Origin: Oleisolibacter albus
Lineage (GTDB): Bacteria; Pseudomonadota; Alphaproteobacteria; Azospirillales; Azospirillaceae
Assembly: GCF_003336875.1 (NCBI RefSeq)
Contig: NZ_QGNJ01000007.1
Coordinates: forward strand, 124,001-188,000
Direction of reading: 5' to 3'
DNA length: 64,000 bases
Numbering within the stretch: the stretch's first letter is position 1; every line of letters starts with the position of its first letter. The notes under the pieces are model-generated. The model made no database searches. It saw only the letters and a program-made list of their open reading frames with translations, and was not told where the DNA came from. Below, one piece after another: positions 37,109 through 57,073 of the stretch. A program made the position numbers and the translations under genes.

Positions 37109-37126
37109 GGCTCGACACCCCTCTCT

Positions 37127-37158
37127 CCCCCTCCCCGGTCTCCCCGGCGGGGAGGGGG
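37127..37158 (+). terminator. GC-rich hairpin between nosZ and nosD
   Basis: CCCCCTCCCC (37127-37136) pairs with GGGGAGGGGG (37149-37158) over a 12-base loop, followed by a weak pyrimidine run (CCTTCTTCCCC). It may partially terminate or stabilise the nosRZ message, giving less nosDFYLX. Confidence 0.55.
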
Positions 37159-37194
37159 CCTTCTTCCCCACAGGCGCCGACAGGACCACCGCCC

Positions 37195-40920: not shown

Positions 40921-41914
40921 GCGTCAGGGCACCGACCGGCGCCGGTTCCTCTGCATCAGCGCCGCCGCCGCCGGGCTGGCGCTGATGCCCCGCCGGGCCG
41001 CCGCCGCGGCCACGCTACACCGCTGGGACGGAACGGCGCTGGGTGCCGACGCCAGCCTGCGGCTGGTGCATCCCGATGCGGGCACGGCCCGCCGCCTGAT
41101 CGACCTCTGTCTGGCCGAGGTGGCGCGGCTGGAGGCGGTGTTCAGCCTGTACCGCGCCGACAGCGCCCTGGTGCGGCTGAACCGCGACGGGCGGCTGGAC
41201 GACCCGCCCGCCGATCTGGTGCGGCTGCTGGGCGAGGCCGGCGCCTATGCACGGGCCAGCGGCGGTGCCTTCGATGCCACGGTGCAGCCGCTCTGGCGCC
41301 TTTACGCAGAACATTTCGCCCGGGACGGCGCCGATCCCGCCGGCCCGCCCGCCAGCGCTGTGGCCGCGGCCCGCGCACTGGTCGACCACAGCGCCGTGCA
41401 GGTGGCGACGGACCGGGTGCGGTTCGCCCATCGCGGCATGGCGGTGACGCTGAACGGCATCGCCCAGGGCTACATCACCGACCGGGTGACCGAGATCCTG
41501 CGCCGGGCCGGCATGACCGATGTGCTGGTCGATATGGGGGAGATCCGCGCCAGCGGCCGGCGCCCCGACGGCCGACCGTGGCAGATCGGCCTGCGCGCCC
41601 CCGTCGGCGGCGGCATCGGCACCACGCTGGCGCTGGTGGACCGCTCCGTCGCCACCTCCGGTGCCGAGGGCACCCGCTTCGACCCGGCCGGGCGCTTCAG
41701 CCATCTGCTGGACCCGGCCAGCGGCCGGGCCGCCCCCCGCTGGACCCAGGTGACGGTGCTGGCGCCGACAGCGACCCAGGCAGACGCCCTGTCCACGGCC
41801 CTGTCCCTGCTGGACGAGCCGCAGGCCCGCCGGCTTGTGGATGCCATGCCGGGCGTGGGCGCCCGCCTCACCGCCGCCGACGGCGGCTGTCTTTCCCTTG
41901 GGGCCGCCGCCTGA
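40910..41914 (+). CDS. nosX: FAD:protein FMN transferase NosX (ApbE family)
   Basis: 334 residues. A twin-arginine-like signal (DRRRFLCISAAAAGLAL) directs export. ApbE motifs include AVFSLYRADSALVRLNR, GGAFDATVQPLW, LNGIAQGYITDRV and DMGEIRASGRRPDG. It attaches FMN to the Thr of the NosR flavin domain. It is the last of the tightly coupled nos genes. Confidence 0.94.
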   Translation: MRTERQGTDRRRFLCISAAAAGLALMPRRAAAAATLHRWDGTALGADASLRLVHPDAGTARRLIDLCLAEVARLEAVFSLYRADSALVRLNRDGRLDDPPADLVRLLGEAGAYARASGGAFDATVQPLWRLYAEHFARDGADPAGPPASAVAAARALVDHSAVQVATDRVRFAHRGMAVTLNGIAQGYITDRVTEILRRAGMTDVLVDMGEIRASGRRPDGRPWQIGLRAPVGGGIGTTLALVDRSVATSGAEGTRFDPAGRFSHLLDPASGRAAPRWTQVTVLAPTATQADALSTALSLLDEPQARRLVDAMPGVGARLTAADGGCLSLGAAA

Positions 41915-41980
41915 TGGCGGACCACGGCCCGTTGCTGCCGGCCCAGGCCGGTCCTTCCATCCGTTCCGAGAGGTTATCCG

Positions 41981-42430
41981 ATGCGTATCCTGACCGCCAT
42001 CCTCGCCCCCGCCCTGACCGTTGCCGCCCTGCTGGCGGGCGGGTCGGCCCAGGCGGCCCAGCATGAGGTCAAGCTGCTGAACCGCGGCAGCGACGGCATG
42101 ATGGTGTTCGAGCCGGCCCTGGTGAAGGCGGCACCCGGCGACACCGTGACCTTCGTCGTCAGCGACAAGGGCCACAATGTGCAGTCCATCGCCGGCATGC
42201 TGCCGGCCGGTGTGCAGCCCTTCGCCTCCGACATCAACCAGGGCTACACGCTGACCGTGACCGAGGCGGGCGTCTATGGCGTAGACTGCAAGCCGCACTA
42301 TCCCATGGGCATGGTGGCGCTGATCGTCGTTGGCGACGGCAAGGCCAACCTGACCGAGGCCAAGGCCACCAAGCTGCCGCCCAAGGCCAAGGAACGGATG
42401 GACAAGCTGTTCCAGAACGCCGGCCTCTGA
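41981..42430 (+). CDS. Pseudoazurin (type I blue copper protein)
   Basis: 149 residues with a signal peptide (LTVAALLAGGSAQA). Copper ligands fit pseudoazurin: H65 (KGHN), C103, H106 and M111 in VDCKPHYPMGM. It is a periplasmic electron carrier used by copper nitrite reductase and NosZ. It is 66 bases after nosX, so probably co-transcribed. Confidence 0.95.
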   Translation: MRILTAILAPALTVAALLAGGSAQAAQHEVKLLNRGSDGMMVFEPALVKAAPGDTVTFVVSDKGHNVQSIAGMLPAGVQPFASDINQGYTLTVTEAGVYGVDCKPHYPMGMVALIVVGDGKANLTEAKATKLPPKAKERMDKLFQNAGL

Positions 42431-42747: not shown

Positions 42748-44118
42748 TCAGGAGGCCACGCGGGCGATGCGGATGCCCAGCTTCTTCACCCGGTGCCACA
42801 GGCTGCGCTCGGTGATGCCCAGAAGCTCGGCGGCCCGCGCCTGCACGCCCCCCGTCTCCCGCAGGGCCGCCGTCAGGATCTCGCGCTCGTACCGTTCCAG
42901 CTCCGCATCGAGATCGTCGGGCAGGGCGGTCTGCGCCGGCGCCATGCGCGGACGGTCCTCGAAGAGATAGGGGGGCAGGTCGGCGACATCGACCAGGTCC
43001 CCCTGGGCCACGATCACCGCCCGTTCCACGCAGTTCTGCAATTCGCGGATATTGCCGGGCCAGTGATAGGCACCCATGGCCGCCGCCGCCGCCTTGCTGA
43101 ACCCGGACAGGCGCTTGCCCATGGACCGCGCATGCTTGGCCAGGAAATGCTCCGCCAGCAGGTCCAGATCGCCCTCGCGGTTGCGCAGGGCCGGCACCTG
43201 GATGGGAAAGACGTTCAGCCGGTAATAGAGATCCTCCCGGAAACTCCGGTTCTCCACCGCGGCCCGCAGATCGCGGTGGCTGGCGGCGATGAACCGCACA
43301 TCCACGGTCACCGGTCTGGTGCTGCCCACCATCTCGAAGGTCTGTTCCTGGATGGCGCGCAGCAGCTTGGCCTGCAGCGGCAGCGGCATGTCGCCGATCT
43401 CGTCCAGGAACAGGGTGCCGCCATTGGCGGCGGCGAAGCGCCCTTCCCGTGTGGCCGTGGCCCCGGTGAAGGCCCCCTTCACATGGCCGAACAGCTCGGC
43501 CTCGATCAGGCTCTCGGGAATGGCGGCGCAGTTGACCGCCACGAAGGGCTTGTTGCGGCGGGGACTGTTGTCGTGGATGGCCCGCGCCACCAGTTCTTTG
43601 CCGGTGCCGCTCTCGCCGTGCAGCAGCACGGTGGCACGGCTGGCGCAGACCTCGGTGATCTGGCGCAGCACCTGCTGGAAGGAGGCGCTGGTGCCGACCA
43701 GACTGGCGAAATCATACTTGGCCCGCAGCTCTTCACGCAGCCGCAGGTTTTCCGCCTCGGTCTCCCGCAGTTTCAGGGCGCGGCCGACGGTGGCGATGAC
43801 ATCCTCGATCTCGAACGGCTTCGAGATGTAATCGAAGGCCCCCTCCTGGATCAGGGCCACGGCATCGCGCACGCTGGCATAGGCGGTCATGATGACGACC
43901 GGGACCTCCGGCCGGGCGGCCGACAGCAGGGCCAGCAGCTCACGCCCGCCGGCACCGGGCATGCGCAGATCGGTCAGCACCAGGCTGACGGGGTTCGCAT
44001 CCATCCAGGCCAGGGCCGCCGGCACGCTGTCGACGAAATGGCTGGGGAAGCCCCGTGCCTCCAGGGCGGCGGCGACCACCTCGCCAAGCCGGACCTCGTC
44101 ATCCACCACCAGGATCAT
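42748..44118 (-). CDS. NtrC-family sigma-54 response regulator of the divergon
   Basis: 456 residues. The receiver domain carries phospho-acceptor D50 ([10 protein letters not shown]) and Lys in YISKPF. The AAA+ domain has Walker A GESGTGKE, the sigma-54-contacting GAFTGA loop and Walker [10 protein letters not shown]. The Fis-type HTH is at the C-terminus ([19 protein letters not shown]). It is the last gene of a six-gene overlapping operon and overlaps the kinase gene by 4 bases. It is the obvious activator of the two sigma-54 promoters in 49506-49929. Confidence 0.95.
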
Positions 44119-45860
44119 ACCGCCCCTCCTCCGGTCACCTTGCGCGCCGGAAACCGGATCAAGAACAGGGTCCCCTGGCCGTGGCCGGTTTCGACGTCGA
44201 TGCTGCCGCCATGCTGTTCGACCACATAGCGGACACGCGCGAGGCCCAACCCGGTCCCCCGTGGCTTGGACGTCACGAACGGCTCGAACAGCCGCTCGCG
44301 GATCTCATCCGGGATGCCCATTCCACTATCACGCACGCAGACGGAAATTCCTGCGCCGTCCTGCTCCACCTTCGTCGACAGCGTGCCGCCCCCCGGCATG
44401 GCATCCATGGCGTTGAGGACCAGATTGAGGAGGCACTGGCGCAGCTGCTCGGCATCGCCCTCCACCTCGGCCGGGCCGGATGGACGCACCAGCTCCACGA
44501 CAATGCCGTGGGCGGTCAGGTCCGGCGTGGCCCGGTCCAGCACATCCGCCAGCACCGCCCCCACATCCACCGGCCGGCGGGACATGGTGCGGGGCCGGGC
44601 GAAATCGAGCAGGTCATGCACCAGATTGTCGATGCGGCCCACCTCGTCCAACACGAATCCCACCAGGCGGTCGGCACTGTCCGGCAATTGCGCCTTCAGG
44701 CGCAGAACCTGGCTTGAGGTCTTGATGATGCCCAGCGGATTGCGGATCTCATGCGCCAGCACAGCCGCGGCCTCGCCCAGAATGGCCAGCTGCTGGCGCC
44801 GCCGGACCTCGGTTTCCCGGGCCCGCAGGACCTCCAGACGTTCCGCCATCTCGTTGAAACCGGCGGCCAGTTCGGACAGTTCCCGCCCGCCATCCACATC
44901 GACCCGCGCCGCGTAATCCCCCTCGTGGACCTGCCGGAGCCCCTTGGACAGCTTGGCCAGGGGCCGGGAAATGACCTTCGACACGGACAGCGCCACCAGC
45001 AGCGAGAAGAGGCCGGCCGCCGCCGACAGCGGCAGGAACAGCGGCAGGGTCCGCAAGAGGGACATCAGCGAAAAGGGCCGGCCCAGATGGCAGGCGATGA
45101 CGCCGACAAGCCGTCCGTCGCGGTTGCGCAGGGCGGCAAAGGCCGTATCGATGGAGTCGTTCGCGTCGCTCTTGGCCAATGTCGCCGGCTCACCCGCCGA
45201 CAAGCGGTCAATGACCCCCGGCGGAAGCCGCGACCATTCGCCGGGGGCAAGAATGCTCATCTGCAACGATGGCACGGCCCCGGACACCTGCTCCACCGGC
45301 CCGTCCCAGCGATCGGCCACGAAGACGAAGTACTTGCTGTCCCCGCGGCGGAACATGCGCGAGGCGCCCAGCAGCAGGATCTGCTCGCCTTCATGGGTGG
45401 TGGTGTAGAAGCCGCTGTCCTGGCTGCGGGGAAGCCACGACGTATCCTCCAGCGCCCCCTGGGCGAACAGGAGCCGGCCATCGGCGGTATAGACCGCCAT
45501 GACCTCGTAGCCGACGGATTTCAGCAGGTCGGCGGGCAACGTCAGCAGAACCTCGTCCGGTTCCCGCGATTCAATGGCAAGGGTATTGGCGATGATGCCG
45601 GCCGCCTGTTGCGCCTCCTCCTCGTCATAGGGGACCATCTGGCCGGCGAACTGGGCAGCGTCCTGCAGCCACAGTTCCACATTGTCGGCGAAGGCTTCGG
45701 CAATGATGTTCGCGGCGATGAGGCTGGCCACGAGGACCGGGACGGCACTGACCAGCAGGAAGGCCAGCACCAGTTGCCAGCGCAGCGTCATGGTCCGCAG
45801 GACGGAGGACAGGGCCGACCACAGGGACGGACGCACGGCACCCGAAGACCGATCCGTCAT
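44115..45860 (-). CDS. Membrane sensor histidine kinase, partner of the NtrC-type regulator
   Basis: 581 residues from ATG 45860, which overlaps the upstream stop as ATGA. TM1 (LVLAFLLVSAVPVLVASLI, about 30-48) is followed by a large periplasmic sensor region of Cache-like size (to about 260), then TM2 (LFLPLSAAAGLFSLLVAL) and HAMP. HisKA has the phospho-His in LAHEIRNPLG (near 370), and the HATPase has DNLVHDLLDF, N-box LLNLVLNAMDA and G-boxes. It senses an unknown periplasmic signal. Confidence 0.93.
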   Translation of the reverse strand: MTDRSSGAVRPSLWSALSSVLRTMTLRWQLVLAFLLVSAVPVLVASLIAANIIAEAFADNVELWLQDAAQFAGQMVPYDEEEAQQAAGIIANTLAIESREPDEVLLTLPADLLKSVGYEVMAVYTADGRLLFAQGALEDTSWLPRSQDSGFYTTTHEGEQILLLGASRMFRRGDSKYFVFVADRWDGPVEQVSGAVPSLQMSILAPGEWSRLPPGVIDRLSAGEPATLAKSDANDSIDTAFAALRNRDGRLVGVIACHLGRPFSLMSLLRTLPLFLPLSAAAGLFSLLVALSVSKVISRPLAKLSKGLRQVHEGDYAARVDVDGGRELSELAAGFNEMAERLEVLRARETEVRRRQQLAILGEAAAVLAHEIRNPLGIIKTSSQVLRLKAQLPDSADRLVGFVLDEVGRIDNLVHDLLDFARPRTMSRRPVDVGAVLADVLDRATPDLTAHGIVVELVRPSGPAEVEGDAEQLRQCLLNLVLNAMDAMPGGGTLSTKVEQDGAGISVCVRDSGMGIPDEIRERLFEPFVTSKPRGTGLGLARVRYVVEQHGGSIDVETGHGQGTLFLIRFPARKVTGGGAV

Positions 45861-46990
45861 GCTGACCGGTCCCGTGCCGGCCCCAGATCCGGGTCCCAGC
45901 GATCGAAATGCAGCCATGGCGCCGCGGCGCGCAGCACCGGGTTCAGCAGACGCAGACGGCTGCGGACGAAGATGCCGGACGGCATCAGGCTGCTCCCGAA
46001 CCGCATTTTGGAGGCGTAGGCGGTCTGCCCCGATTGCAGCAGACGGCGCCCCGTCTGCAGGGCGAAACGGACATTTTCCATCCAGCTGACGGCATAGATA
46101 TTGTGCTCCGGCCCCAAGGGATAGGCCATGCCCAGGAACTTGTCGATGATCCGGTCCGGCTCCAGGAACAGCAGGTTGAAGGCCGCCAGCTCACCACCGA
46201 TCCAGTAGAGGACAAAGCGGGCGCGGCCGTCCAGTGCCGCGGCCACGGCCCGGAAATAGCCCTCCGGCAGATCCTCGAAATCACCGTAGCGCACGGCGCT
46301 GTGATCGCGGGTGCTGGCATAGAGCGCCTCGATCCGGTCGGCCACATCGTCGATGCGGTCGCGATGCTCGATGCGGAGGGCGGCACGGGCCTTCAGCTTG
46401 CGCCGCAGGTCCTTGCGGGTCCCGGCCGACAGGCTGGCCAGATAGGCCCCCTCGTCCTGTCCGGTCAGGTCCAGCACAGCCACCGGCAGGCTGCGCAGAC
46501 CGACATAGCCCCTGGCCGACAGCGCCGCCGCCAGCGGCGTGTTCTCAGGCGCGGCCAGGTCCTTGAACGCCAGCAGCCGCGCCCGGGTGGCGGCCGCCTC
46601 CGCCTCCAGCAGGGCCAGGAAGGCATCCAGGACCCGGTCACGGGCCGCGGCATCCAGCCCCGGCCGCACCGCCACATGGCAGCGCTCGGCCAGGGCCGAG
46701 CCGACCCCCAGCAGGCGCCAGGTGAACAGGCCCGGCAACCGGCGCGCCACGGCCTGCACGGCAGCCGTGGCCGCTCCCTGGAACGGCGTGTCGAGCCGGT
46801 ATTCCATGGTGAACAGCGGGGCCGCCATCGCAAGCCCGCCGGCGTCACGGACCACGGCGAAGCGGCCGCCGACCGCACGGTAATAGGCCCAGCCTTCGGC
46901 CTCCTGCGGGAAGCAGGCCGTCCATTGCGCCGCCGGTATCCCGGCAATATCCGGCAGGATCTCGGCCCGCAGCCCGGGTTCAGCCGACAT
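45857..46990 (-). CDS. GNAT/FemAB-like acyltransferase
   Basis: 377 residues. The C-terminal half (SLSAGTRKDLRRKLKAR, RARFVLYWIGGELAAFNLLF, HNIYAVSWMENVRFALQTG) has the pattern of FemAB-like/GNAT_6 N-acyltransferases that act on amino groups of envelope precursors or small aminated compounds. No signal peptide or TM helix is seen. The gene overlaps its neighbours on both sides (11 and 4 bases) and is in the operon with a phosphatase, hydrolases and the two-component system. The substrate is unknown; with two aminotransferases in the divergent operon, an amine is a reasonable guess. Confidence 0.75.
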   Translation of the reverse strand: MSAEPGLRAEILPDIAGIPAAQWTACFPQEAEGWAYYRAVGGRFAVVRDAGGLAMAAPLFTMEYRLDTPFQGAATAAVQAVARRLPGLFTWRLLGVGSALAERCHVAVRPGLDAAARDRVLDAFLALLEAEAAATRARLLAFKDLAAPENTPLAAALSARGYVGLRSLPVAVLDLTGQDEGAYLASLSAGTRKDLRRKLKARAALRIEHRDRIDDVADRIEALYASTRDHSAVRYGDFEDLPEGYFRAVAAALDGRARFVLYWIGGELAAFNLLFLEPDRIIDKFLGMAYPLGPEHNIYAVSWMENVRFALQTGRRLLQSGQTAYASKMRFGSSLMPSGIFVRSRLRLLNPVLRAAAPWLHFDRWDPDLGPARDRSA

Positions 46991-47852
46991 TGGCCACCGC
47001 CTTGACCGGCGTTCCCCGGCCCAGGGCCGCCGTCTCCGCCGCGGCCAGCGCCGACAGGAACGTCGAGGCCCGACGCGCCACCAGATCACGCTGCCGGTCC
47101 ACCGTGACCAGGTGATAGGAATCCTCCAGGATCAGGGCATCGACACGCCCGCCCAGATGCCTCTGGAAATGGAAGGCGTTCGACAGTCCCGCCGTGTCAT
47201 CCTCCCGGGCATGGACCACCAGGGCCGGCTGCCGGATAGCCGGCAGGCGCGGCCGCAGATCGGCGCTCAGACGCCACATTTCCCGGATCGCCGATGAGGG
47301 CGTGGACATCAGGCCCGCCGTGTCGTTCCCGGCCGTGTGCAGCGCCTGGGCCACCATGGAGCGGATACGCTTATCCTTGACGCCGTAGGGGTCCTTCTCG
47401 ACGAAATGATAGCGGCGACCGATGGGCGTATTGATCAGCAGGCGCAGCAGGAAGCTGTACCAGGGGATCGACCAGCCATCATACCAGAGCGTCGGTGCCA
47501 GCAGCATCAGGCCACGCACCCGGTCTGGCTGCCCGGCGGCAAGGCGGGCGGCCAGGAGGGCGCCCATGGACAGGCCCCCGGCCACGATCAGGTCGCATGT
47601 CTGCTCCAGCCGCACCAGCGCCGTGTCCAGGCTGGCGAGCCAGTCCTGCCAGCGGCTGGCGACAAGCTCGGCCTCGGTGGCACCATGCCCCGGCAACTGG
47701 CAGCAGAGCACCGTCGCCCCGTCCCGGTTCAGGCGGCGGGCCAGGGACCCCATCTCGACAGGCGTCCCCCCCAGGCCATGCACCAGCAGCACGCCCAGGC
47801 GCCGGCCCTCCACCCCCTTGCCGGCGAGGAAAATGGTCTTGTCAGCGGTCAT
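46980..47852 (-). CDS. Alpha/beta hydrolase (carboxylesterase-like)
   Basis: 290 residues. LVHGLGGTPVEMGSLARRL is the oxyanion region, GGLSMGALLAARLA holds the nucleophile Ser, DDTAGL the acidic residue and EDSYHLVTVDRQR the His. The pattern matches small carboxylesterases/monoacylglycerol lipases of the Est30 type. Cytoplasmic. It overlaps both neighbours (4 and 11 bases), so it belongs to the divergon pathway, perhaps deacylating or thioester-cleaving an intermediate. Confidence 0.88.
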   Translation of the reverse strand: MTADKTIFLAGKGVEGRRLGVLLVHGLGGTPVEMGSLARRLNRDGATVLCCQLPGHGATEAELVASRWQDWLASLDTALVRLEQTCDLIVAGGLSMGALLAARLAAGQPDRVRGLMLLAPTLWYDGWSIPWYSFLLRLLINTPIGRRYHFVEKDPYGVKDKRIRSMVAQALHTAGNDTAGLMSTPSSAIREMWRLSADLRPRLPAIRQPALVVHAREDDTAGLSNAFHFQRHLGGRVDALILEDSYHLVTVDRQRDLVARRASTFLSALAAAETAALGRGTPVKAVANVG

Positions 47853-48808
47853 GTCGGCCAAAGCCCTTCTGCGGCCATGGCATCGGCCGCGTGCAGAATG
47901 CGCGTGTTGGTCAGGTCGTTGATGGAACCGGCCGCAGCGCGGTCCACCGGCGGCAGCCGGGGATGGTCGGTGGCGGACAGGAACCAGCGGAAGGGGTCGC
48001 GGTAGACCGGGACGGAATAGTCGCCACAGACATCCATGCCGCGCAGCGGGCGCCGCCGGGCCAGACGCCGGACCAGGGAGAGCACGGCATCCAGCCACAG
48101 GCCGCCCTGGTCCCAGTTGGTCACCGCCTCCTCCGGCCCCAGCGCATCCTTGTCCAGCGACACCCAGATCGGCGTCGGCGGCAGACGGGCGTCCAGCGCC
48201 GCGGCGAAGGCCTCCCAGTCCTGCCCGGCCAGACAATCCCAGTGGATGTGACAGGCCCTGGTCCGGCAGCCCGGCCCGTTGACGGGACGCCCCCACAGGC
48301 GGCTGGGCGCCGCCCGCCAGGGATGCACCTCCAGCCGGCCGGAGCGGATGGCATCGAGATTCGCGAACGCCAGTTGCGGCCGGACGAAATCATCGCTGGC
48401 CGGACCGATGGTCACCACCCGCTCGACGCCCGGCAGGTCCAGGGCCCGGTTGACCCAGCCGCCACAGTTCCAGGTGGCCGGAAAGCCGGTCCAGTCCGGA
48501 TGGTTGTCGATATGCAGGATGGTCAGGGGTCCCTTGGCCGCGGCGATGAAAAGGGCCGCCAGATGGTGGAAATCCCCGGACCCGTAGAAGATCAGCGGCG
48601 CTCCGCCCTGACCGGCGGGCACGATGCGGGCCATGCGCCCGGACAGATCGGCCAGGGCCGACCGGCTGGCGACGATGCGCAGGGCGGGGGCGAGATCGCG
48701 GGCCGGGATCAGCATGGCCTGTCCCGATGTCAGCCGGGCGCGCAGACCGGACTGGTCGGCCACACTGCCATCGAGATCGACGGCGATACAGCGGAGTTGA
48801 GCCGCCAT
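47849..48808 (-). CDS. Arginase/ureohydrolase-fold protein of unknown substrate
   Basis: 319 residues. Metal-binding motifs of the ureohydrolase fold are recognisable: YGSGDFHHLAALF (GDxH region), LHIDNHPDW (DxHxD) and VSLDKDALGPEEA (SxDxD). The two-metal site therefore looks intact, but the surrounding sequence is unlike arginase, agmatinase or formiminoglutamase. Family relatives cleave C-N bonds of guanidino, amide or acetylated amines. It is 10 bases downstream of the HAD gene and overlaps the hydrolase gene by 4. Confidence 0.7.
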   Translation of the reverse strand: MAAQLRCIAVDLDGSVADQSGLRARLTSGQAMLIPARDLAPALRIVASRSALADLSGRMARIVPAGQGGAPLIFYGSGDFHHLAALFIAAAKGPLTILHIDNHPDWTGFPATWNCGGWVNRALDLPGVERVVTIGPASDDFVRPQLAFANLDAIRSGRLEVHPWRAAPSRLWGRPVNGPGCRTRACHIHWDCLAGQDWEAFAAALDARLPPTPIWVSLDKDALGPEEAVTNWDQGGLWLDAVLSLVRRLARRRPLRGMDVCGDYSVPVYRDPFRWFLSATDHPRLPPVDRAAAGSINDLTNTRILHAADAMAAEGLWPT

Positions 48809-48818
48809 GACCCGTCCC

Positions 48819-49505
48819 TCACGCCACCTGCCGCCCGTCCGCCGCCGCCGGGAACATCTCCGCCAGCCAGGTGTGGAAGGCCGGCGTCAGATCGGAAAAG
48901 CCGGTGAAGGCCGTGTGGGCAATGCCATGGGCCGCGCAATGGACCGCCAGCTTGCCTTTGGCGAAGACGTGGTCGGCGACCCCGGCGCCACAGAAATCCG
49001 AGCGGCCATCCCCGATGAGAACCGTGGCGGGATGGCCGATGCCGCCGCCGACCGACGCGCATTTGCAATTGCCCGACGCCGCCCTGCAGCCCTGCCGGGC
49101 ATGGGGGAAATCGAGATGCCAGCGATCCTCCCCCCTCGAGGTCAGCCGGTTGGACAGCACCGGCAGGTCCAGGCCCAGCCGCCGCAACACCATCCGCGCC
49201 ACCTGGTCGAGACCGTCGGAGAGGATGGTCACCGCCAGCCCCTCCTCGCGGCAGAGCCGCATGAAGCCGGGGAAACCGGGATCGATGGCCAGACCGGCGG
49301 CGAACTGCTCCAGCGCCTCCGGCGTCAGCCGCAGCAGACCCACCTGCCGGGCCATGCATTCACGCGAACCGATCTCGCCCCGCGCCCAGGCCTGTTCCAC
49401 CGTCTCCCATCCCGGTTCGGCGAACTGCTCCAGCAACAGGTCGGTGGTGTCGGCAACGGAAATGGTGCCGTCGAAATCGATATAGAGCCGCGGAGAGATG
49501 CGCAT
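48819..49505 (-). CDS. HAD-family phosphatase (MtnX/PSP-like)
   Basis: 228 residues. The nucleophile motif is YIDFDGTISVADTTD, motif II Ser/Thr is VTILSDGLDQV, and motif IV is VLIGDGRSDFCGA. This is the HAD-IB arrangement of phosphoserine phosphatases and the MtnX-like enzymes. It is the first gene of the minus operon, 59 bases downstream of a sigma-54 promoter (49564-49578). ATG 49538 is an alternative start. The insert CRAASGNCKCASVGG with three Cys is unusual and may bind a metal. Confidence 0.88.
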   Translation of the reverse strand: MRISPRLYIDFDGTISVADTTDLLLEQFAEPGWETVEQAWARGEIGSRECMARQVGLLRLTPEALEQFAAGLAIDPGFPGFMRLCREEGLAVTILSDGLDQVARMVLRRLGLDLPVLSNRLTSRGEDRWHLDFPHARQGCRAASGNCKCASVGGGIGHPATVLIGDGRSDFCGAGVADHVFAKGKLAVHCAAHGIAHTAFTGFSDLTPAFHTWLAEMFPAAADGRQVA

Positions 49506-49563: not shown

Positions 49564-49578
49564 GCAAGCGGCGTGCCA
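49564..49578 (-). promoter_or_regulatory. Sigma-54 promoter for the HAD-to-NtrC operon
   Basis: The minus-strand sequence TGGCACGCCGCTTGC matches the -24/-12 consensus (TGGCACG-N4-TTGC) at every fixed base, with GG-N10-GC spacing. The transcript would start near 49552 and the first ATG is at 49505. Confidence 0.8.
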
Positions 49579-49668
49579 GCCGCGGAGCAGCACCGGCCCG
49601 GCCCCATAATCCACCGGACAGCGCCCGTTTCCCTGCATCGCTCCCGTCCGGCCGCCGGATCGTGGAGC

Positions 49669-49699
49669 GGGGCGATCTACAAATTTTGTAGCTCGCCCC
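49669..49699. promoter_or_regulatory. 31-bp near-perfect palindrome, candidate activator site (UAS)
   Basis: The core CTACAAATTTTGTAG (49677-49691) is perfectly symmetric. The arms extend to GGGGCGA and TCGCCCC with one mismatch (T at 49676 against C at 49692). It lies between the two sigma-54 promoters. A further half-site (TGTAGCCCCC) follows at about 49706. It is the likely binding site for the Fis-type HTH of the NtrC-family regulator. Confidence 0.65.
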
Positions 49700-49836
49700 C
49701 GAACCTGTAGCCCCCAGGCTGCGGCGGCGCGGACAGGAGCGGCCACCGGCCTGCCACCGGCGCTGCCGCGGTTCCCCTAGGCGCAGCAGGGCTTCCGCCC
49801 CGGTTCCAGCCGGATCGTGGCCGCGATGCCCCGGGC

Positions 49837-49853
49837 TTGGCATGGGGAGTGCA
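49837..49853 (+). promoter_or_regulatory. Sigma-54 promoter for the aminotransferase operon
   Basis: TTGGCATGGGGAGTGCA keeps GG-N10-GC (GG at 49839-49840, GC at 49851-49852) and deviates from consensus at two minor positions. The transcript would start near 49864, 66 bases before the ATG at 49930. Confidence 0.7.
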
Positions 49854-49929: not shown

Positions 49930-51273
49930 ATGACCATGCAGTATCAGCAGCCGAACCGGTACCGCCAGAGCGCGGCCCTGTTCGAGAAGGCCAAGACCCT
50001 GATCCCGGGCGGCGTCAACAGTACGGCCCGGGCGACCTGGTCCGGCTGGGACCCGCATCCGCTGTTCATTTCCCATGGGACCGGCTCCCGCGTCACCGAT
50101 GTGGACGGCAACGAGTATATCGACTACCTGCTGGGTCTCGGCCCCATGCTGCTGGGGCACCGTCCCGCCGCCGTCACCCAGGCGGTGGTCGACTTCATCG
50201 AGCAACGCGGAACGGTGTTCGCCCTGCCGGCGGCCGAGGAGCTGGATCTGGCGGCCAAGATCAGCGCCGCGGTACCCAGCATGGAGCGCGTGCGCCTGTG
50301 CAACACCGGCACGGAGGCCGTGCTCTACACCGTCCGTCTGGCCCGCGCCTTCACCGGGCGGCAGAAGCTGATCCGCTTCGAAGGCATGTATCACGGCTTC
50401 TCCGACGGCGTGTACTGGAGCAAGCACCCCTATCTGGCCTTCGCCGGGCCGGACAACGCACCGAAGCCCGTGGCCCAGGGACCCGGGATGCCGGCCGGCG
50501 TCGAGCAGAGCCTGATCATCCTGCCCTGGAACGATATCGACGCCCTGCGCGAGACGCTGGAGCGTGAAGGCGACAACATCGCCGCCGTGCTGACCGAGCC
50601 GGTCATGTGCAACACCGGCTGCATCCTGCCCAAGCCGGGCTATCTGGAGGCCATGCGCGACCTGACACGCAAGCACGGCGTGCTGCTGATCATGGACGAG
50701 GTCATCACCGGCTTCCGCATTTCCCTGGGCGGCGCCCAGGGCTATTACGGCATCACACCGGACCTGTCGGTCTTCGCCAAGGGGCTGGGCGGCGGCTTCC
50801 CGGTCGCCGCCATGGGTGGCCGGCGCGATATCATGGCGCTGGTGGAACAGGGGCGGGTCTCCATCGCCGGCACCTACAACGCCAACGGCATCGCCGTTTC
50901 CGCCGCCAACGCCACGCTGGACATCCTGGCCCAGCCCGGCATGTATGAGCGGCTGCACGCGGTCAGCGACCGTCTGCGCGAGGGGCTGACCCGGATCATC
51001 CACGATCTGCGTGCGCCGGCGCATGTGGTCGGCGTCGGACCGGTGCTGCAGCTCTGGTTCTCCCGCCATCCCATCCACAATTACCGCGATGCCGTCCGCC
51101 ATTCCGACGACAATGCCTTCCGCCGCTGGTGGGAAGGCATGCTGAACCGGGGCGTGATGTTCCATCCCGGCGCCTTCGAGAACCTGTTCGTCTCCTTCGC
51201 CCACACGGAGGCGGATGTCGATCAGACGCTGGCCGCCGCCCGCGAGACCCTGTCGGAGATGCTGGTGGCATGA
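49930..51273 (+). CDS. Class III aminotransferase (glutamate-1-semialdehyde aminomutase-like)
   Basis: 447 residues from ATG 49930, the first start downstream of the predicted transcript start. Features of PLP fold type I class III enzymes are LIPGGVNSTARATWSGW, CNTGTEAVLYTVRLARAFTG, LLIMDEVITGFRISLGG and the Schiff-base Lys in SVFAKGLGGGFPVAA. It resembles HemL but is longer, and the context is a metabolic operon, so a dedicated omega-aminotransferase is more likely than haem synthesis. It overlaps the next gene by 4 bases. Confidence 0.9.
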   Translation: MTMQYQQPNRYRQSAALFEKAKTLIPGGVNSTARATWSGWDPHPLFISHGTGSRVTDVDGNEYIDYLLGLGPMLLGHRPAAVTQAVVDFIEQRGTVFALPAAEELDLAAKISAAVPSMERVRLCNTGTEAVLYTVRLARAFTGRQKLIRFEGMYHGFSDGVYWSKHPYLAFAGPDNAPKPVAQGPGMPAGVEQSLIILPWNDIDALRETLEREGDNIAAVLTEPVMCNTGCILPKPGYLEAMRDLTRKHGVLLIMDEVITGFRISLGGAQGYYGITPDLSVFAKGLGGGFPVAAMGGRRDIMALVEQGRVSIAGTYNANGIAVSAANATLDILAQPGMYERLHAVSDRLREGLTRIIHDLRAPAHVVGVGPVLQLWFSRHPIHNYRDAVRHSDDNAFRRWWEGMLNRGVMFHPGAFENLFVSFAHTEADVDQTLAAARETLSEMLVA

Positions 51274-52073
51274 CGGTGCGGGCCGCTTCCGGTGCCGCGG
51301 CGGCGGCCCTGTTCCTCCTGGGATGTCCCTCGGCCGGCCCGGCCCGTGCGGCGGAGTCCGCCGGCCCCGTGCTGGACCTGTCCTACGGGGCCGGCGGGCT
51401 GACCGGCCCCCGCTATGCCGGCGCCAAGACGGTGGATGCCTGGGCCTTCCCCTATATCAGCGGCAGCATCGGATCGAGCGTGGAGGTGGATACGCTGGAC
51501 GGCATCCGCTTCACGCCGCTGTCCGGCGACGGCCTGTCCCTGGGCATGATCAGCCGCTACCGGGCGGGACGGGCGGGACGATCCCTGCCGGTGCCGCTGC
51601 GGGGGCTCGGCGGCTATCGGGATGCCGTCGAGCTGGGCGGCTTCGCCAGCTGGGAGGACGGCCCCTTCGGGCTGGAGCTGCTGGCCACGACCGATCTCGA
51701 CAGCGCCACCGGCGGCGCCACGCTGGAGGCGCGGGCCACCCTGTCCCTGCCGTTCGGTGACCCGGACACGCGGCAGGGCCTGCAGATCGGCCCGGTGCTG
51801 CGGGCGACCAATCAGCAGCTGCAGCAGCGCGTGTTCGGCGTCAACGAGCGGCAGGCGGCGGCCACGGGGCTGTCGCCCTTCCGCCCGTCGGGCGGGACCG
51901 AGCAGGTGGGTGTCGAAGCCGGCCTGGCCCTGTCCCTGACGGGACGCTGGTCCCTGCGCGGGGTCGCTTCCTGGAACCGGCTGGTCGGCGATGCCACCCG
52001 CTCGCCGCTGGTGCGCGAGGGCGGAACGCGGGACCAGCTGGCCAGCGGCCTGTTCCTCGTCTTCACTCCATGA
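51270..52073 (+). CDS. MipA/OmpV-family outer-membrane protein
   Basis: 267 residues. It has a signal peptide, and a Cys in the LLGCPSAGPARA segment may be fortuitous. The mature part is all beta: GPRYAGAKTVDAWAFPYI, RYRAGRAGR, LGGFASWEDGPFGLELL, and ends QLASGLFLVFTP. This pattern (GPxY...P) is characteristic of MipA/OmpV, which form outer-membrane barrels used as scaffold or channel. In this operon it may serve as exit or entry channel for the product. It overlaps the aminotransferase gene by 4 bases. Confidence 0.8.
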   Translation: MTVRAASGAAAAALFLLGCPSAGPARAAESAGPVLDLSYGAGGLTGPRYAGAKTVDAWAFPYISGSIGSSVEVDTLDGIRFTPLSGDGLSLGMISRYRAGRAGRSLPVPLRGLGGYRDAVELGGFASWEDGPFGLELLATTDLDSATGGATLEARATLSLPFGDPDTRQGLQIGPVLRATNQQLQQRVFGVNERQAAATGLSPFRPSGGTEQVGVEAGLALSLTGRWSLRGVASWNRLVGDATRSPLVREGGTRDQLASGLFLVFTP

Positions 52074-52083
52074 GGTCCGCCCC

Positions 52084-52437
52084 ATGACGGGTACCGTTCT
52101 CATCCTCTGGCTGATCAACATCATCTGCGACACCGGCGGCCAGCTCGCCTTCAAGGCGGCGGCCGCCGCCGACGGGGACGGGCTTGCCCGCTGGAAGGCC
52201 ATGGCCGGCAAACCGTGGGTCTGGCTCGGCCTTGCCGCCTATGTCATCGAGTTCCTGGCCTGGCTTGCCTTCCTGTCGCTGGTGCCCCTGTCCGAGGGCG
52301 TGCTGCTGGGCTCCATCAATATCGTCCTGATCATGATCGCCGGCCGCATCCTGTTCGCCGAGCGGCTGTCGCCGCTGCGCGTGCTGGGCATCCTGCTGGT
52401 GACCGCCGGTGTGGGCGTCGTCGGGATCGGTGCATGA
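52084..52437 (+). CDS. Small 4-TM SMR/DMT-type transporter, subunit 1
   Basis: 117 residues with four hydrophobic helices. CDTGGQLAFKAAAAADG in helix 1 and PLSEGVLLGSINIVLIMIAG followed by RILFAERLSPLRVLGILLV in helices 3-4 match half-size EamA/SMR proteins (ArnE, MdtI and similar). It is paired with the next gene and overlaps it as ATGA, as in heterodimeric SMR exporters or ArnEF flippases. The substrate is unknown. Confidence 0.85.
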   Translation: MTGTVLILWLINIICDTGGQLAFKAAAAADGDGLARWKAMAGKPWVWLGLAAYVIEFLAWLAFLSLVPLSEGVLLGSINIVLIMIAGRILFAERLSPLRVLGILLVTAGVGVVGIGA

Positions 52438-52823
52438 TGCGGAAATCCACGATCATCGGGTTCCTGTGCCTGGCCGGCTTCGACGTCATGGCACAGCTGT
52501 CGTTCAAGACGGCAGCCACGGCCGCCCTGCCGATGTCGCCCGACCTTGGCTGGGTCCTGCGCGTGCTGGCCGAACCCGCCGTCTATCTGGCGGTGCTGGG
52601 CTATATCGGGGCCTTCTTCACCTGGATCAGCCTGCTGAAGCACGCCCCGGTCGGACCGGCCTTCGCCGCCTCCCATCTGGAGGTGGTCCTGGTCATGCCC
52701 TTCGCCGTGCTGCTGTTCGGCGAAGCGGTCGGGTGGATTCAGGTGGCGGGGGCGGGTCTGATCCTGTCCGGCATCGCCTGTCTTGCCCTGGACGAGTCCC
52801 GGACGCCCCATGATGCCGCTTAG
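52434..52823 (+). CDS. Small 4-TM SMR/DMT-type transporter, subunit 2
   Basis: 129 residues with four hydrophobic helices. FDVMAQLSFKTAATAAL, PVGPAFAASHLEVVLVMPFA and LLFGEAVGWIQVAGAGLI are the counterparts of the motifs in subunit 1. It is probably the second half of a heterodimer. It overlaps the DegT-type gene by 14 bases. Confidence 0.85.
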   Translation: MMRKSTIIGFLCLAGFDVMAQLSFKTAATAALPMSPDLGWVLRVLAEPAVYLAVLGYIGAFFTWISLLKHAPVGPAFAASHLEVVLVMPFAVLLFGEAVGWIQVAGAGLILSGIACLALDESRTPHDAA

Positions 52824-54018
52824 GCGCGAACTGCCGCCGACCGCCGGCCTGCCGCTGTCCTGGCGCGATCTGACCGGTGGCGGCCCGGCCCGGCTGGCCC
52901 GCGACGCCGCCGGTTTCCTCGGTGTCGACGAATTGCTGCTGACCTGCTCGGGAACCGCGGCCCTGGTCGTGGCCCTGATGACGCTGAAGCAGACCAGTCC
53001 GCGGCGGACGGTGATCATCCCCGGCTTCACCTGCCCGCTGGTGCCCATCGCCATCGCCCAGTGCGGCCTGCGCGTCCAGACCTGCGACCTCGTCCCCCGG
53101 GGGCTGGACATGGACCCGGTTCAGCTCCGCCATCTGTGCGACGCGGACACGCTGGCCGTGGTGCCGACCCATCTGGCCGGCCGCATCGCCGATGTGGCGG
53201 CCGCGCGGCAGGCCGCGGCGGCCGTGGGCGCCTGGGTCATCGAGGACGCCGCCCAGGCCTTCGGCGCCCGCACACCGGCGGGCCCCGTCGGCACCCAGGG
53301 GGATTTCGGGCTGTTCAGCCTGGCCGTCGGCAAGGGCCTGACCCTGTATGAGGGCGGGCTGCTGCATGTGCGCGACGCGACGCTGCGGGCGCTGGCGCGG
53401 GAGGTGGCAACATTGCTGCTGCGGCCCGACTGGCGGCAGGAGATGGTGCGGGGCCTGCAACTGGCGGGCTATGCCGCCCTCTACCGGCCCGGCCTGCTGG
53501 CCCTGGCCTATGGCGACGGGGTGCGCCGGGCCTTGCGCAACCAGGATCCGGAAACGGCAGCCGGCGACCGCTTCGGACGGGAGATCCCGCTGCACGCGGT
53601 GGGGCGCTGGCGCCAGCGTGTCGGCAGCCGGGCCTTGACGCGGCTGGCCCCCTTCCTGGCCGATGGCCGGACCAGGGCGGCCCGCAACGCCGGGCGGTTC
53701 GCGGCCGTGCCGGGTGTTGCGGTCTTCACCGACCGGCCGGGCGATGACGGGGTCTGGCCGTCGCTGCTGCTGCGGTTGCCCGACCGCGCCAGCCGCGACC
53801 GGGCCCTGGACAGGCTGTGGGGGGCCGGCCTGGGCGTGTCACGCCTGTTCGTGCATGACCTTGCCGGCTATGATTTCCTGCGCGACATCGTTGCGCCGGC
53901 CCCCTGCCCCCAGGCGCGGATGCTGGCGGACACCAGCCTGAGCGTCGGCAACTCCCCCTGGCTGACGCCCGCGGATCTCGACCGGATCACCGGGATTCTG
54001 GCCGACGCCGTGGCCTGA
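52810..54018 (+). CDS. DegT/DnrJ/EryC1-family aminotransferase
   Basis: 402 residues. Family features are LLTCSGTAALVVALM, IIPGFTCPLVPIAIAQCG, VVPTHLAGRIADV, VIEDAAQAFGA and the PLP Lys in FSLAVGKGLTLYEGG. Members aminate keto-sugars or similar carbonyl compounds. Here the C-terminal part is less conserved. Last gene of the plus operon. With two SMR-like proteins upstream it recalls the ArnB/ArnEF set of lipid A modification, although no Arn glycosyltransferase is present. ATG 52813 is an equally possible start. Confidence 0.85.
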   Translation: MMPLRRELPPTAGLPLSWRDLTGGGPARLARDAAGFLGVDELLLTCSGTAALVVALMTLKQTSPRRTVIIPGFTCPLVPIAIAQCGLRVQTCDLVPRGLDMDPVQLRHLCDADTLAVVPTHLAGRIADVAAARQAAAAVGAWVIEDAAQAFGARTPAGPVGTQGDFGLFSLAVGKGLTLYEGGLLHVRDATLRALAREVATLLLRPDWRQEMVRGLQLAGYAALYRPGLLALAYGDGVRRALRNQDPETAAGDRFGREIPLHAVGRWRQRVGSRALTRLAPFLADGRTRAARNAGRFAAVPGVAVFTDRPGDDGVWPSLLLRLPDRASRDRALDRLWGAGLGVSRLFVHDLAGYDFLRDIVAPAPCPQARMLADTSLSVGNSPWLTPADLDRITGILADAVA

Positions 54019-54128: not shown

Positions 54129-54136
54129 CCTGCCCC

Positions 54137-55330
54137 ATGGCGCATACCCCTGCCCGTCTGCCCGACATGCTGCCCCTGCGGGTCGTTGCGGATCTGGAAC
54201 GGGCGGCAACGGCGCTGGCGCGGCTGGATGGGGCGCTGCTGGGCAGCCCGCTGGTCCCGGCCTGGCAGTTCCGGGCCACGCTGGCGGCGGCCACGGCCCT
54301 GGCCGAAGCCGACGGGCTGCGGCCCGACAGCCGGCGCGTGGCCGCCATGGCCCTGGGACTGCGGCAGGAAGCCCCGGCCCCGCTGCTGAGCTTCGCCAAC
54401 GGAGAGGCCGAACGCGACCAGGGCGCCGCCGCCCATGCGCTGCGCCTGTTCCTGCTGCTGCGCGACAGCCTGACTCTGGACGAGACACCGGGTCCGGATG
54501 CGGACGCCGATCCGCTGCTCCACGGCGTGGCGGCGGCCCGGGCGCATCTGGAACAGACACACAAGGACGGACCGGTGCTGCTGGCAGCCGGGCTGGGCCT
54601 GCGCCACTGGATCGAGACCGGCGGCGACCGGCCATCGGTCTGGGCCGCCCTGCCCGGCTTCCTGGCGCGCAGCGGCGCCCTGCGGGTGCCCTGCCCGCTG
54701 GTGGTCGGCGCCGGCAGCCTGCGCGCCCGCGCCGACTGGACACGGCCCCTGCCGGACTGGCTGCGCATCTTCCTGCATTGCATCACCCGCGAGGCCGATC
54801 AGGCCCTGACCCTGCTGCTGGATCTGGAGCGGGTGTGGCGGCAGGCCCGGCGGCAGGCCATGGCGCAGTCGCGCAGCCATTCGCGGCTGCCGCAGGTGGT
54901 GGATCTGTTGGCCCTGGTGCCCATGGTCAATCCGGAGAGCCTGGCCCGCTTCCTGTCGGGCGGCCGCGACCCGCGCCAGGGGCACCGCCCCGTGGATGAC
55001 GACGGCCCCTACTGCTCCCCGCGCGGGGCCGCCAAGATATTGGAAAAAATGGAGAGTCTGGGACTGGTGGTGGAGTTGTCGGGGCGCGGCACCCACAAGG
55101 TCTACAGCCTGCCAGATCTGGCCCCCCTGCGCAGCCAGAGCCAGCCGGCCCGGCGCCGCGCCGCGCCGGCCACGGCGGCGGAACCGGACATGACCAGCCT
55201 TCCGGTTCCGGCCCGGCTGGATGCGCCGCCGCTGGACGAAGCGGCACTGGAAGCGGCCACCGCCGAACTGGATGCTGTGCTCAGCCGGCTGGAAGCCCGG
55301 CTGCGCGGCCGCTCATCCGACGTCGGATAA
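54137..55330 (+). CDS. Winged-helix protein of RHE_PE00001/DUF1612 type next to parAB (possible replication gene)
   Basis: 397 residues from ATG 54137. The helical N-terminal region (ALARLDGALLGSPLVPAWQF) and the C-terminal winged helix (SPRGAAKILEKMESLGLV then VELSGRGTHKVYSLP) resemble plasmid-borne RHE_PE00001-family proteins. A variable Pro/Ala linker and a final coiled-coil helix follow. It lies tail-to-tail with parB. Its last five codons plus stop (SSDVG-stop) are written by a parS palindrome. A role in replication or copy control is inferred only from position. Confidence 0.6.
   Translation: MAHTPARLPDMLPLRVVADLERAATALARLDGALLGSPLVPAWQFRATLAAATALAEADGLRPDSRRVAAMALGLRQEAPAPLLSFANGEAERDQGAAAHALRLFLLLRDSLTLDETPGPDADADPLLHGVAAARAHLEQTHKDGPVLLAAGLGLRHWIETGGDRPSVWAALPGFLARSGALRVPCPLVVGAGSLRARADWTRPLPDWLRIFLHCITREADQALTLLLDLERVWRQARRQAMAQSRSHSRLPQVVDLLALVPMVNPESLARFLSGGRDPRQGHRPVDDDGPYCSPRGAAKILEKMESLGLVVELSGRGTHKVYSLPDLAPLRSQSQPARRRAAPATAAEPDMTSLPVPARLDAPPLDEAALEAATAELDAVLSRLEARLRGRSSDVG
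55313..55330. repeat. parS-like site 1 (end of the winged-helix gene)
   Basis: TCATCCGACGTCGGATAA has the full 14-bp palindromic core ATCCGACGTCGGAT. It codes for the last residues and the TAA stop of the winged-helix gene and ends two bases before the parB stop region. Confidence 0.75.
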
Positions 55331-55331
55331 C

Positions 55332-56177
55332 TCAGCCCAGGATCTCGTCGATCCGCTGGCGCAGCGCCTGCAACTGGTCGCGCTGGGCCGCCGTCAGCGT
55401 CCCACCCTTGCCCTTCAACGGCTCCAGCGACGTCATGGTCCGGGCCAGCGTGCGGAAGACCGGAGACAGCCCCGCCGCCGGTTTGGCCGGCCGCGCCGGC
55501 GCCCGCCCGGCCTTTTCCTCGCGGATGGCACGCACCGTCAGGGCACCCTCCCGCGCCCGCTGCCACAGGGCCAGCTGCCGCTCCGGATCAGCCACGGTGG
55601 CCAGTTCGATCAGCAGGGAGCGGGACACCGTCTTATCCGACGTCGGATAATCGTCGCGGATGCGGGGATGCAGGGTCAGCAGGCGCAGCAGCGCACTGAC
55701 CTGCCCCTGGCTCTTGCCCACGGCGGCCCCCAGTTCCTCCTGGGTATAGCCGTGCTTGTCGAGCAGACGTTGCAGGGCGGACGCCTCTTCCAGGGCGGTG
55801 AGATCCTGGCGTTGCAGATTCTCGATCAGGCCGATCTCGTCCACATCGCCTGTCGTGACGATGGCATAGAGGGTGGCCCAGCCCAGCATGCGGGCGGCCC
55901 GCCAGCGGCGTTCGCCCGAGACGATCTCATAGACGCCGTCGCGCCCCTGCGCCTCCCGCACCAGGATCGGATGGATCAGGCGCACGCGGGCCATGCTGGC
56001 CGCCAGCTCCCGCAGCGCATCCTCGTCGAAATGCCGCCGCGGCTGGTCGGCCCGCGGCTCCAGCTTGTCGAGATCAATCTCCAGCAGGCGCGGGAAATCG
56101 CCCGAGGTGCCGAACAACGGATCGCGCGCCACCCGTTCGATGGCGGAGCCGAAGGTGTCGCGTCGCTTAAGCTTCAT
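55332..56177 (-). CDS. parB: Chromosome/plasmid partitioning protein ParB
   Basis: 281 residues. The ParB/Spo0J N-domain has LEPRADQPRRHFDEDALREL and GERRWRAARMLGW (CTPase box). The HTH region follows (YTQEELGAAVGKSQGQVSALLRLL), then a C-terminal dimerisation helix. The frame reads through a perfect parS palindrome (encoding YPTSDKT). It overlaps parA by 11 bases. Confidence 0.95.
   Translation of the reverse strand: MKLKRRDTFGSAIERVARDPLFGTSGDFPRLLEIDLDKLEPRADQPRRHFDEDALRELAASMARVRLIHPILVREAQGRDGVYEIVSGERRWRAARMLGWATLYAIVTTGDVDEIGLIENLQRQDLTALEEASALQRLLDKHGYTQEELGAAVGKSQGQVSALLRLLTLHPRIRDDYPTSDKTVSRSLLIELATVADPERQLALWQRAREGALTVRAIREEKAGRAPARPAKPAAGLSPVFRTLARTMTSLEPLKGKGGTLTAAQRDQLQALRQRIDEILG
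55633..55650. repeat. parS-like site 2 (perfect 18-bp palindrome inside parB)
   Basis: TTATCCGACGTCGGATAA is perfectly symmetric over 18 bases and lies within the parB coding region. It probably represents the consensus ParB-binding site of this replicon. Confidence 0.8.
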
Positions 56178-56940
56178 GGGCCAGTTCCTTGGCGACGGTG
56201 CGGTAGGCGTTGACGGGATGGTCCAGCGGCAGCACCTTCAGCGCAACCTCACCATTGTAGGAGGCCTGGTCGAAGCCGGTGGCGCGGTGGACCGGCGGGA
56301 AGATGCGGGTCATGCCGCCCAGCTTCTCCTGCAACTCGTCCAGAACCTGCCGATTCACCTTAAGCTTGGGGTCGTGCAGGGTCGGCAGGATGCCGACCAC
56401 CTTCAAGGACGGGTTCAGCCGCCGTTGCAGCTTGGTCACGGTTTCCAGCAGCAGCGGAATGCCCAGCATGTCCAGGAACGCCGTCTTCACCGGAATCAGC
56501 ACCCGCTGCGCCGCCACCAGCCCGTTGGCCGTCATCGGCCCCAGATTGGGCGGCGTGTCGATGAGGATGAAATCATAGAGGTCGCGCACATCCTGCAGCG
56601 CCTCCTTCAGCACCATGTCGCCGCCGGCCTCGTTGCGGATGCGCATCTCCCCCTCGGCCAGGGAGATGCCGGAGGGCAGCAGATCGATGCGGGCGGCATC
56701 CACATGCACGATGGCCTTGGCGATCGGCGTCTGCTGGAACAGCACATGGAAGAGCGTGGCCTTGTCCTGCTCGAACTGGAAGGCATCCAGTCCGACAGCG
56801 GCGGTGGCGCTGGCCTGAGGATCGGCATCCACCACCAGCACCTTGTGTCCCAGATCGGCCAGGGCCGTGGCCAGATTGACGGCGGTGGTGGTCTTGCCGA
56901 CACCGCCCTTCTGGTTGGCAATCGCGATTGTCACGCCCAT
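56167..56940 (-). CDS. parA: Partitioning ATPase ParA
   Basis: 257 residues from ATG 56940, nine bases after a GGAGG site; ATG 56949 abuts that site and is less likely. The deviant Walker A is NQKGGVGKTTTAVNLA, Walker A' VLVVDADPQASAT and Walker B FILIDTPPNLG. With no N-terminal HTH domain it is of the short (chromosomal/Soj or type Ib) class. It is upstream of parB in the same operon, preceded by two parS-like sites. Confidence 0.95.
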   Translation of the reverse strand: MGVTIAIANQKGGVGKTTTAVNLATALADLGHKVLVVDADPQASATAAVGLDAFQFEQDKATLFHVLFQQTPIAKAIVHVDAARIDLLPSGISLAEGEMRIRNEAGGDMVLKEALQDVRDLYDFILIDTPPNLGPMTANGLVAAQRVLIPVKTAFLDMLGIPLLLETVTKLQRRLNPSLKVVGILPTLHDPKLKVNRQVLDELQEKLGGMTRIFPPVHRATGFDQASYNGEVALKVLPLDHPVNAYRTVAKELAHEA

Positions 56941-57073
56941 TGTCGCCATCCTCCGTGCCCGGCGGGAGCCCCTGGAAGGCGGGCCACACGGCACCGGACT
57001 GCGTCGCGACACTACGGATCGGCCGCGGGGCCGTCAATGCGTAGAGACGGCGTTATGTGGCGATGATGCCGCT

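Follow-up and report, generated by a model that had tools for sequence, protein, structure and literature searches.

Two divergent operons in a 64-kb stretch of the Oleisolibacter albus genome (the window) raise the question of what switches them on. The minus-strand operon begins with a gene for a HAD-IB phosphatase (hereafter HAD), and the plus-strand operon begins with a gene for a class-III aminotransferase. An earlier note had read the region between them (checked here within 49564–49853) as two back-to-back sigma-54 promoters around a 31-bp palindrome, with an NtrC-type regulator, encoded at the end of the minus operon, acting on both arms and on its own expression. Judging from sequence and its conservation, it is highly probable that this region serves a dedicated kinase/NtrC-type sigma-54 switch as its common enhancer and pair of promoters; the switch would activate the gene cluster and itself.

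Both -24/-12 sites and the palindrome are found by direct reading where the note had placed them. The minus-operon site, TGGCACGCCGCTTGC, agrees with the sigma-54 consensus at every fixed base, as had been claimed, and the HAD start codon (49503–49505) lies 58 bp beyond it. The plus-operon site, TTGGCATGGGGAGTGCA, does keep GG-N10-GC and matches only there and at TGGCA; the aminotransferase ATG at 49930 lies 76 bp beyond it. Between the two is a dyad in which 14 of 15 pairs are complementary around a single central base, with the core CTACAAATTTTGTAG, at start-to-start distances of 113 bp from the minus promoter and 161 bp from the plus promoter. The pattern TGGCAC-N5-TTGC occurs 20 times in the genome (4 times for the reversed control), so by our own arithmetic about 0.001 occurrences are expected per 290 bp. 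These two sites are the only places in the window with the looser pattern TGGCAY-N6-TGC, against 2.45 occurrences expected in shuffled windows; the plus site is thus not significant from base statistics alone. Of the promoter pair in the earlier note, the minus site stands as a strong one, and the plus site is weaker and at chance level by this measure. The arrangement as a whole rises above chance because it is conserved in relatives.

The co-occurrence of the dyad with the regulator was followed in distant relatives. A search with a profile built from this cluster's ureohydrolase-like protein covered contigs representing one genome per species, and the best 80 of 460 relatives were used. After 5 loci with no HAD match were removed, 75 loci with both the HAD and the ureohydrolase-like gene remained; a regulator match above 50% identity is present in 57 and absent from 14, and in the other 4 the contig or fetched stretch ended first. 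The 80 relatives span Niveispirillum, Azospirillum, Roseomonas, Humitalea, Bosea, Mesorhizobium, Labrys, Pseudomonas and others, and many of the distant ones hold the same gene set in rearranged form; no relative was found in the viral contigs searched. Upstream of HAD, the 57 regulator-bearing loci match the operator pattern CTMCA-N5-TGKAG exactly in 52 cases, with one mismatch in 2 and with two in 3, and the cut-off loci match it exactly in 4/4; in the 14 loci without the regulator, the best match has two mismatches in 5 cases and three mismatches in the other 9. Controls with permuted arms gave 0 mismatches in 46 of 3363 cases. The top-scoring sigma-54 site in front of HAD reaches at least 17.5 of 19.5 in 57/57 regulator-bearing loci and no more than 16.0 in the 14 without the regulator. 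With the dyad exact in 52/57 loci versus 0/14, these comparisons support the proposal that the minus-operon NtrC-type regulator acts through the palindrome on the sigma-54 promoters. The recognition helix ERS[LF]W[HY]R is kept from the window to Pseudomonas wherever the orthologue stretch reached the helix.

Closer relatives show the same association. In the genus, which is that of Niveispirillum, 59 genomes were scanned including the window's own, and the HAD gene was found in four further genomes. Three of them (G002, G009 and G007) share most of the gene order, although MipA and DegT were not found in the G007 stretch, and their intergenic regions retain all 15 dyad bases and both -24/-12 sites amid strongly diverged sequence. 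In G006, several cluster genes are truncated, the intergenic region is shorter and the palindrome is absent. Four genomes of Azospirillum (genus g12) have an identical dyad, both kinds of site and most of the genes. Across the family, the exact palindrome is present in 10/82 genomes, one copy each. An intact ureohydrolase-like gene is present in 8/82 genomes, and the palindrome accompanies it in 8/8 of these versus 2/74 of the others. In the latter two (G005 and G010), the palindrome stands beside broken kinase and regulator genes. G010 has a sigma-54 site on each side of the palindrome, 101 and 110 bp off, with nearly all other cluster genes lost, and G005 has a single site 133 bp from the palindrome. 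The genes facing the surviving sites in these two genomes encode proteins that are similar by eye, and the G005 copy (on L100) has a weak, sub-threshold Glyphos_transf match. In these two species of the same genus (L099:9812-11573 and L100:2354-5853), the enhancer and one or both sigma-54 sites outlast most of the cluster.

The operator is rare outside the cluster. The exact 15-mer core has one copy in the 4.69-Mb genome of the window, and no second place with up to 2 mismatches was found in that whole genome, which answers the earlier note's question of whether the palindrome recurs elsewhere. The pattern CTACAA-N3-TTGTAG was also counted in 28 whole genomes other than the window's and occurs at 24 distinct places (7 for the reversed control). 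The cluster dyad accounts for 21 of the 24; one further place is in G119 and two lie elsewhere in G126. Seven genomes, namely G126 and the six in which the pattern has no match, carry the cluster dyad as an off-pattern variant, so the count is no test of them. From these counts, the regulator looks dedicated to one cluster, with an operator that is nearly unique in the genomes searched.

The anatomy of the operator was studied at 42 loci with exact arms, in which conservation of the arm letters holds by construction. The outer arms of the 31-bp palindrome were considered as part of the conserved site and rejected: pairs ±8 to ±18 show no complementarity beyond that of the shuffled controls (smallest p 0.09). 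The conserved site is thus the 15-bp core and not 31 bp; the palindrome of the earlier note is present at its place, but only its inner 15 bp are conserved. Pair ±5 changes from A:T to C:G on both sides and is complementary in 35/42 loci against a shuffle mean of 26.2, with relatedness uncontrolled. Extra flanking half-sites are more frequent than expected (23 seen versus 0.9 expected in 38 loci), which fits a multimerising regulator. On the HAD side, the distances between dyad and promoter are phased at 10.5 bp (Rayleigh p 0.0085), a suggestive and exploratory result from hand-collected distances with three periods tried. A coupling between the CTCCA variant of the operator and the helix was also considered and dropped: CTCCA is seen only where one helix position is Ala or Asn, and both residues also occur with CTACA, again with relatedness uncontrolled.

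Control of both arms depends on lineage. HAD and the aminotransferase diverge from the dyad in Niveispirillum, Azospirillum, Roseomonas, Humitalea, Rubritepida (which has no exact dyad) and Labrys. In the Labrys locus L145, the first gene on the second side encodes a fatty-acid desaturase. The second-side promoter in 13 divergent loci examined has GG-N10-GC with TGGCA or TGGAA, and weaker GG-N10-GC matches in the same regions make this side less secure. In Bosea and Mesorhizobium, the cluster genes all lie on a single strand; Pseudomonas has MipA on the far side of the dyad. A sigma-54 promoter on the MipA side in Pseudomonas was rejected, since the matches are weak and inconsistent (5/11 loci examined). 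The two-sided layout of the earlier note is thus seen in the window, its genus, Azospirillum, Roseomonas and relatives, and Labrys; in Bosea and Mesorhizobium the layout is one-sided, so the two-sided form is lineage-specific. As regulation, the locus is a clean case of one predicted enhancer serving one or two promoters by lineage.

Several points weigh against a dedicated two-promoter switch. The 57 regulator-bearing loci are not independent (24 are from Pseudomonas and 13 from Bosea or Boseaceae), and among the 14 without the regulator, L129, L133 and L149 lie on short contigs ending near its expected place. The dyads of L116, L119 and L121 are no better than chance by mismatch count; because two mismatches are also seen in 5/14 loci without the regulator, these three count by position only, at 88–89 bp before the promoter. 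Two Labrys loci have a long distance between dyad and HAD promoter (333 and 147 bp). The half-site pattern was picked after looking, 10 of the 23 extra half-sites are one position common to 10 Pseudomonas loci, and the window has none. Phasing is absent on the aminotransferase side (p 0.43), the plus promoter taken alone is not above chance, and a simple consensus scan of the region found no sigma-70-like promoter for basal expression.

These points leave room for other explanations. Short perfect dyads are typical of dimeric repressors, and the NtrC-type regulator is tied to the dyad by co-occurrence; the dyad could instead be the site of another, unlinked regulator, such as a repressor, with the NtrC-type protein merely travelling with the cluster. 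This is quite improbable, given that loci with most of the cluster and no regulator orthologue are also without the dyad and the sigma-54 site, including L130 and L138, which have adequate flanks, and that the dyad lies upstream of the promoters and not over them (67–113 bp start to start in nearly all loci). The inverted repeat lies between divergent genes and might be taken for a hairpin in RNA or DNA, for example one that terminates transcription between the operons. Divergent genes need no terminator between them, a scan of the region found no terminator-like site, and the outer arms, which could have made a hairpin stronger, are unconserved, all of which makes this explanation scarcely credible.

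Another doubt concerns the plus arm. Only the minus promoter may be real, with the plus site a chance match and the aminotransferase operon served by another promoter. The plus pattern occurs at chance frequency and is without the TT of TTGC, its distance to the dyad varies from 103 to 194 bp and is unphased, further weak GG-N10-GC matches lie in the same regions, and the clusters of Bosea and Mesorhizobium use one strand only. Conversely, the plus site keeps its aligned position across three further species of the genus, the remaining divergent loci that were examined also have a similar GG-N10-GC on that side, and one such site persists in G010 after gene loss. A chance match is judged unlikely.

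A scheme for the shared switch can be built on what the analysis establishes, namely which sequence elements are present, how they are conserved, that they occur together with the regulator and that the operator is nearly unique among the genomes covered. A dCache-like domain would let the kinase sense a small molecule outside the inner membrane, and the kinase would then phosphorylate the NtrC-type regulator. A regulator dimer would bind the dyad core, assisted by neighbouring half-sites in some relatives, and the bound regulator would assemble its AAA+ ring and reach the sigma-54 polymerase at both promoters by DNA looping. The minus arm would then express the HAD, ureohydrolase-like, hydrolase, acyltransferase, kinase and regulator genes, and the plus arm would express its five genes, from the class-III aminotransferase to DegT. 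We infer positive autoregulation from the position of the kinase and regulator genes at the end of the minus operon: activation would raise the level of its own regulator. We likewise infer the binding, looping, signal and product. A broader reading is possible, and we hold it tentatively, as somewhat less than an even bet. The locus would represent a stand-alone sigma-54 regulon with about one enhancer per genome in Alphaproteobacteria and Pseudomonas, jointly activating its own sensor and an undescribed pathway that makes and exports an amino- or guanidino-derived compound, either secreted or part of the envelope. The enhancer and promoters would have outlived the pathway in two relatives, where they would now face other genes, possibly for surface polysaccharide.

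Positions of the predicted control elements and of the genes of the two operons in the window
Feature	Position	Strand	Basis or remark
Minus-operon sigma-54 -24/-12 promoter	49564–49578	-	TGGCACGCCGCTTGC, predicted from sequence
Enhancer, predicted NtrC-type regulator site	49669–49699	not specified	core CTACAAATTTTGTAG at 49677–49691
Plus-operon sigma-54 -24/-12 promoter	49837–49853	+	TTGGCATGGGGAGTGCA, GG-N10-GC, predicted from sequence
HAD-IB phosphatase, MtnX-like, first minus-operon gene	48819–49505	-	PF12710 and TIGR01488 over cut-off
Ureohydrolase (arginase)-fold protein	47849–48808	-	PF00491 29.1 bits, cut-off 22; fold match to ureohydrolases
Alpha/beta hydrolase	46980–47906	-	PF12146
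GNAT/FemAB-like acyltransferase	45857–46990	-	PF13480
Sensor histidine kinase	44115–45917	-	HAMP-HisKA-HATPase; N-terminal region modelled dCache-like
NtrC-type sigma-54-activating response regulator, last minus-operon gene	42748–44118	-	REC, AAA+ with GAFTGA, Fis-type helix-turn-helix (HTH)
Class-III aminotransferase, glutamate-1-semialdehyde-aminomutase-like, first plus-operon gene	49930–51273	+	
MipA/OmpV outer-membrane protein	51129–52073	+	PF06629; coordinates of the open frame, not a set start
EamA/SMR-type small transporter 1	51991–52437	+	PF00892 26.0 bits, below cut-off 28.2; conserved; open-frame coordinates
EamA/SMR-type small transporter 2	within 52209–52823	+	conserved; stretch coordinates, not a set start
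DegT/DnrJ/EryC1 aminotransferase	52783–54018	+	PF01041; kept in some relatives

The minus operon runs from HAD through the ureohydrolase-fold protein, alpha/beta hydrolase, acyltransferase and kinase to the regulator, with open frames that overlap or nearly touch, and the plus operon runs from the class-III aminotransferase through MipA and the two small EamA/SMR proteins to DegT. The ureohydrolase-like model resembles the arginase fold (best E 6.4e-9; query template-modelling (TM) score about 0.43–0.55), and its putative metal motifs DNHPDW and S-x-DKD are invariant across 8 sequences. The Pseudomonas homologue of the acyltransferase also matches PF04339 (FemAB_like). The N-terminal region of the kinase was modelled with a mean predicted local distance difference test score (pLDDT) of 76.0, and most of the 50 Foldseek matches listed for this sensor model are sensors of the dCache type (best E 2.8e-6; query TM 0.31–0.51). 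It is plausible that the kinase responds to a small-molecule signal and that the product is an amino- or guanidino-derived compound of the envelope or for export.

The genome encodes one rpoN (a single PF04552 match, 227 bits), and sigma-54-activator AAA+ matches number 12 strong and 3 marginal. The earlier note had argued from this regulator being the only NtrC-type activator in the window, which is weak ground by itself in a genome with 12 strong activators. The regulator shares REC, AAA+ with GAFTGA and the Fis-type HTH with NtrC, AtoC and ZraR, but falls below all curated cut-offs: NtrC proper (TIGR01818, 454.5 against 558.6), AtoC (PRK11361, 462.1 against 714) and ZraR (400.1 against 760) were each rejected, as was PrsR of the PEP-CTERM system (TIGR02915, 408.7 against 502.6). 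The half-site of NtrC is TGCACC, which the operator of the window does not resemble. In Pseudomonas protegens, a second kinase/NtrC-type pair seems from open frames to lie directly upstream of the ureohydrolase-like gene (L146:6232-9458); the corresponding second regulator in related loci such as L167 and L178 is about 38% identical to that of the window.

The architecture is that of standard sigma-54/NtrC-type regulation. In E. coli, hyc and hyp are divergent sigma-54 operons sharing activator sites for FhlA, which is not a response regulator. The likeness is one intergenic region firing both ways from sigma-54 promoters, whereas the genes and the type of activator differ. The nearest documented parallel in the literature consulted is PrsK/PrsR, in which a kinase and an NtrC-like regulator have a phylogenetic profile matching that of a conserved DNA motif upstream of a -24/-12 site at PEP-CTERM genes (PMC1569441). 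Here too a kinase/NtrC-like pair tracks a conserved motif upstream of a sigma-54 site, but the motif is one shared site; the comparison concerns the arrangement of the elements. A catalogue of Pseudomonas syringae two-component proteins may list the regulator by gene tag, and the cluster was not recognised in the excerpt of it (PMC2222644). The exact operator strings appear in no paper of the open-access library searched, and no paper on the cluster was recognised among the search results there, judged largely by titles and abstract openings.

An uncharacterised regulator is now paired with a specific predicted operator that is nearly unique across the genomes covered, and about ten conserved genes are linked to that operator in Azospirillum, Niveispirillum, Roseomonas, Bosea, Mesorhizobium and Pseudomonas. 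The undescribed cluster becomes testable through its probable, conserved switch: the operator would give a ready reporter for the inducing signal, and a single promoter fusion gives entry to an unexplored pathway.

The surroundings of the two operons hold further genes. Adjoining the regulator gene, positions 37042–42430 encode NosD, an ABC ATPase, a membrane protein, ApbE and a plastocyanin/azurin-family protein; this stretch is part of a cluster of the nitrous-oxide-reductase type, and from their position we take the ABC ATPase and membrane protein to be nosF and nosY. On the other side, at 54131–57012, genes for ParA and ParB lie next to an open frame (54131–55330) that has no Pfam match; the contig of the window may be a secondary replicon. 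Further on, positions 58495–59847 encode a protein made mostly of pentapeptide repeats, with long antisense open frames.
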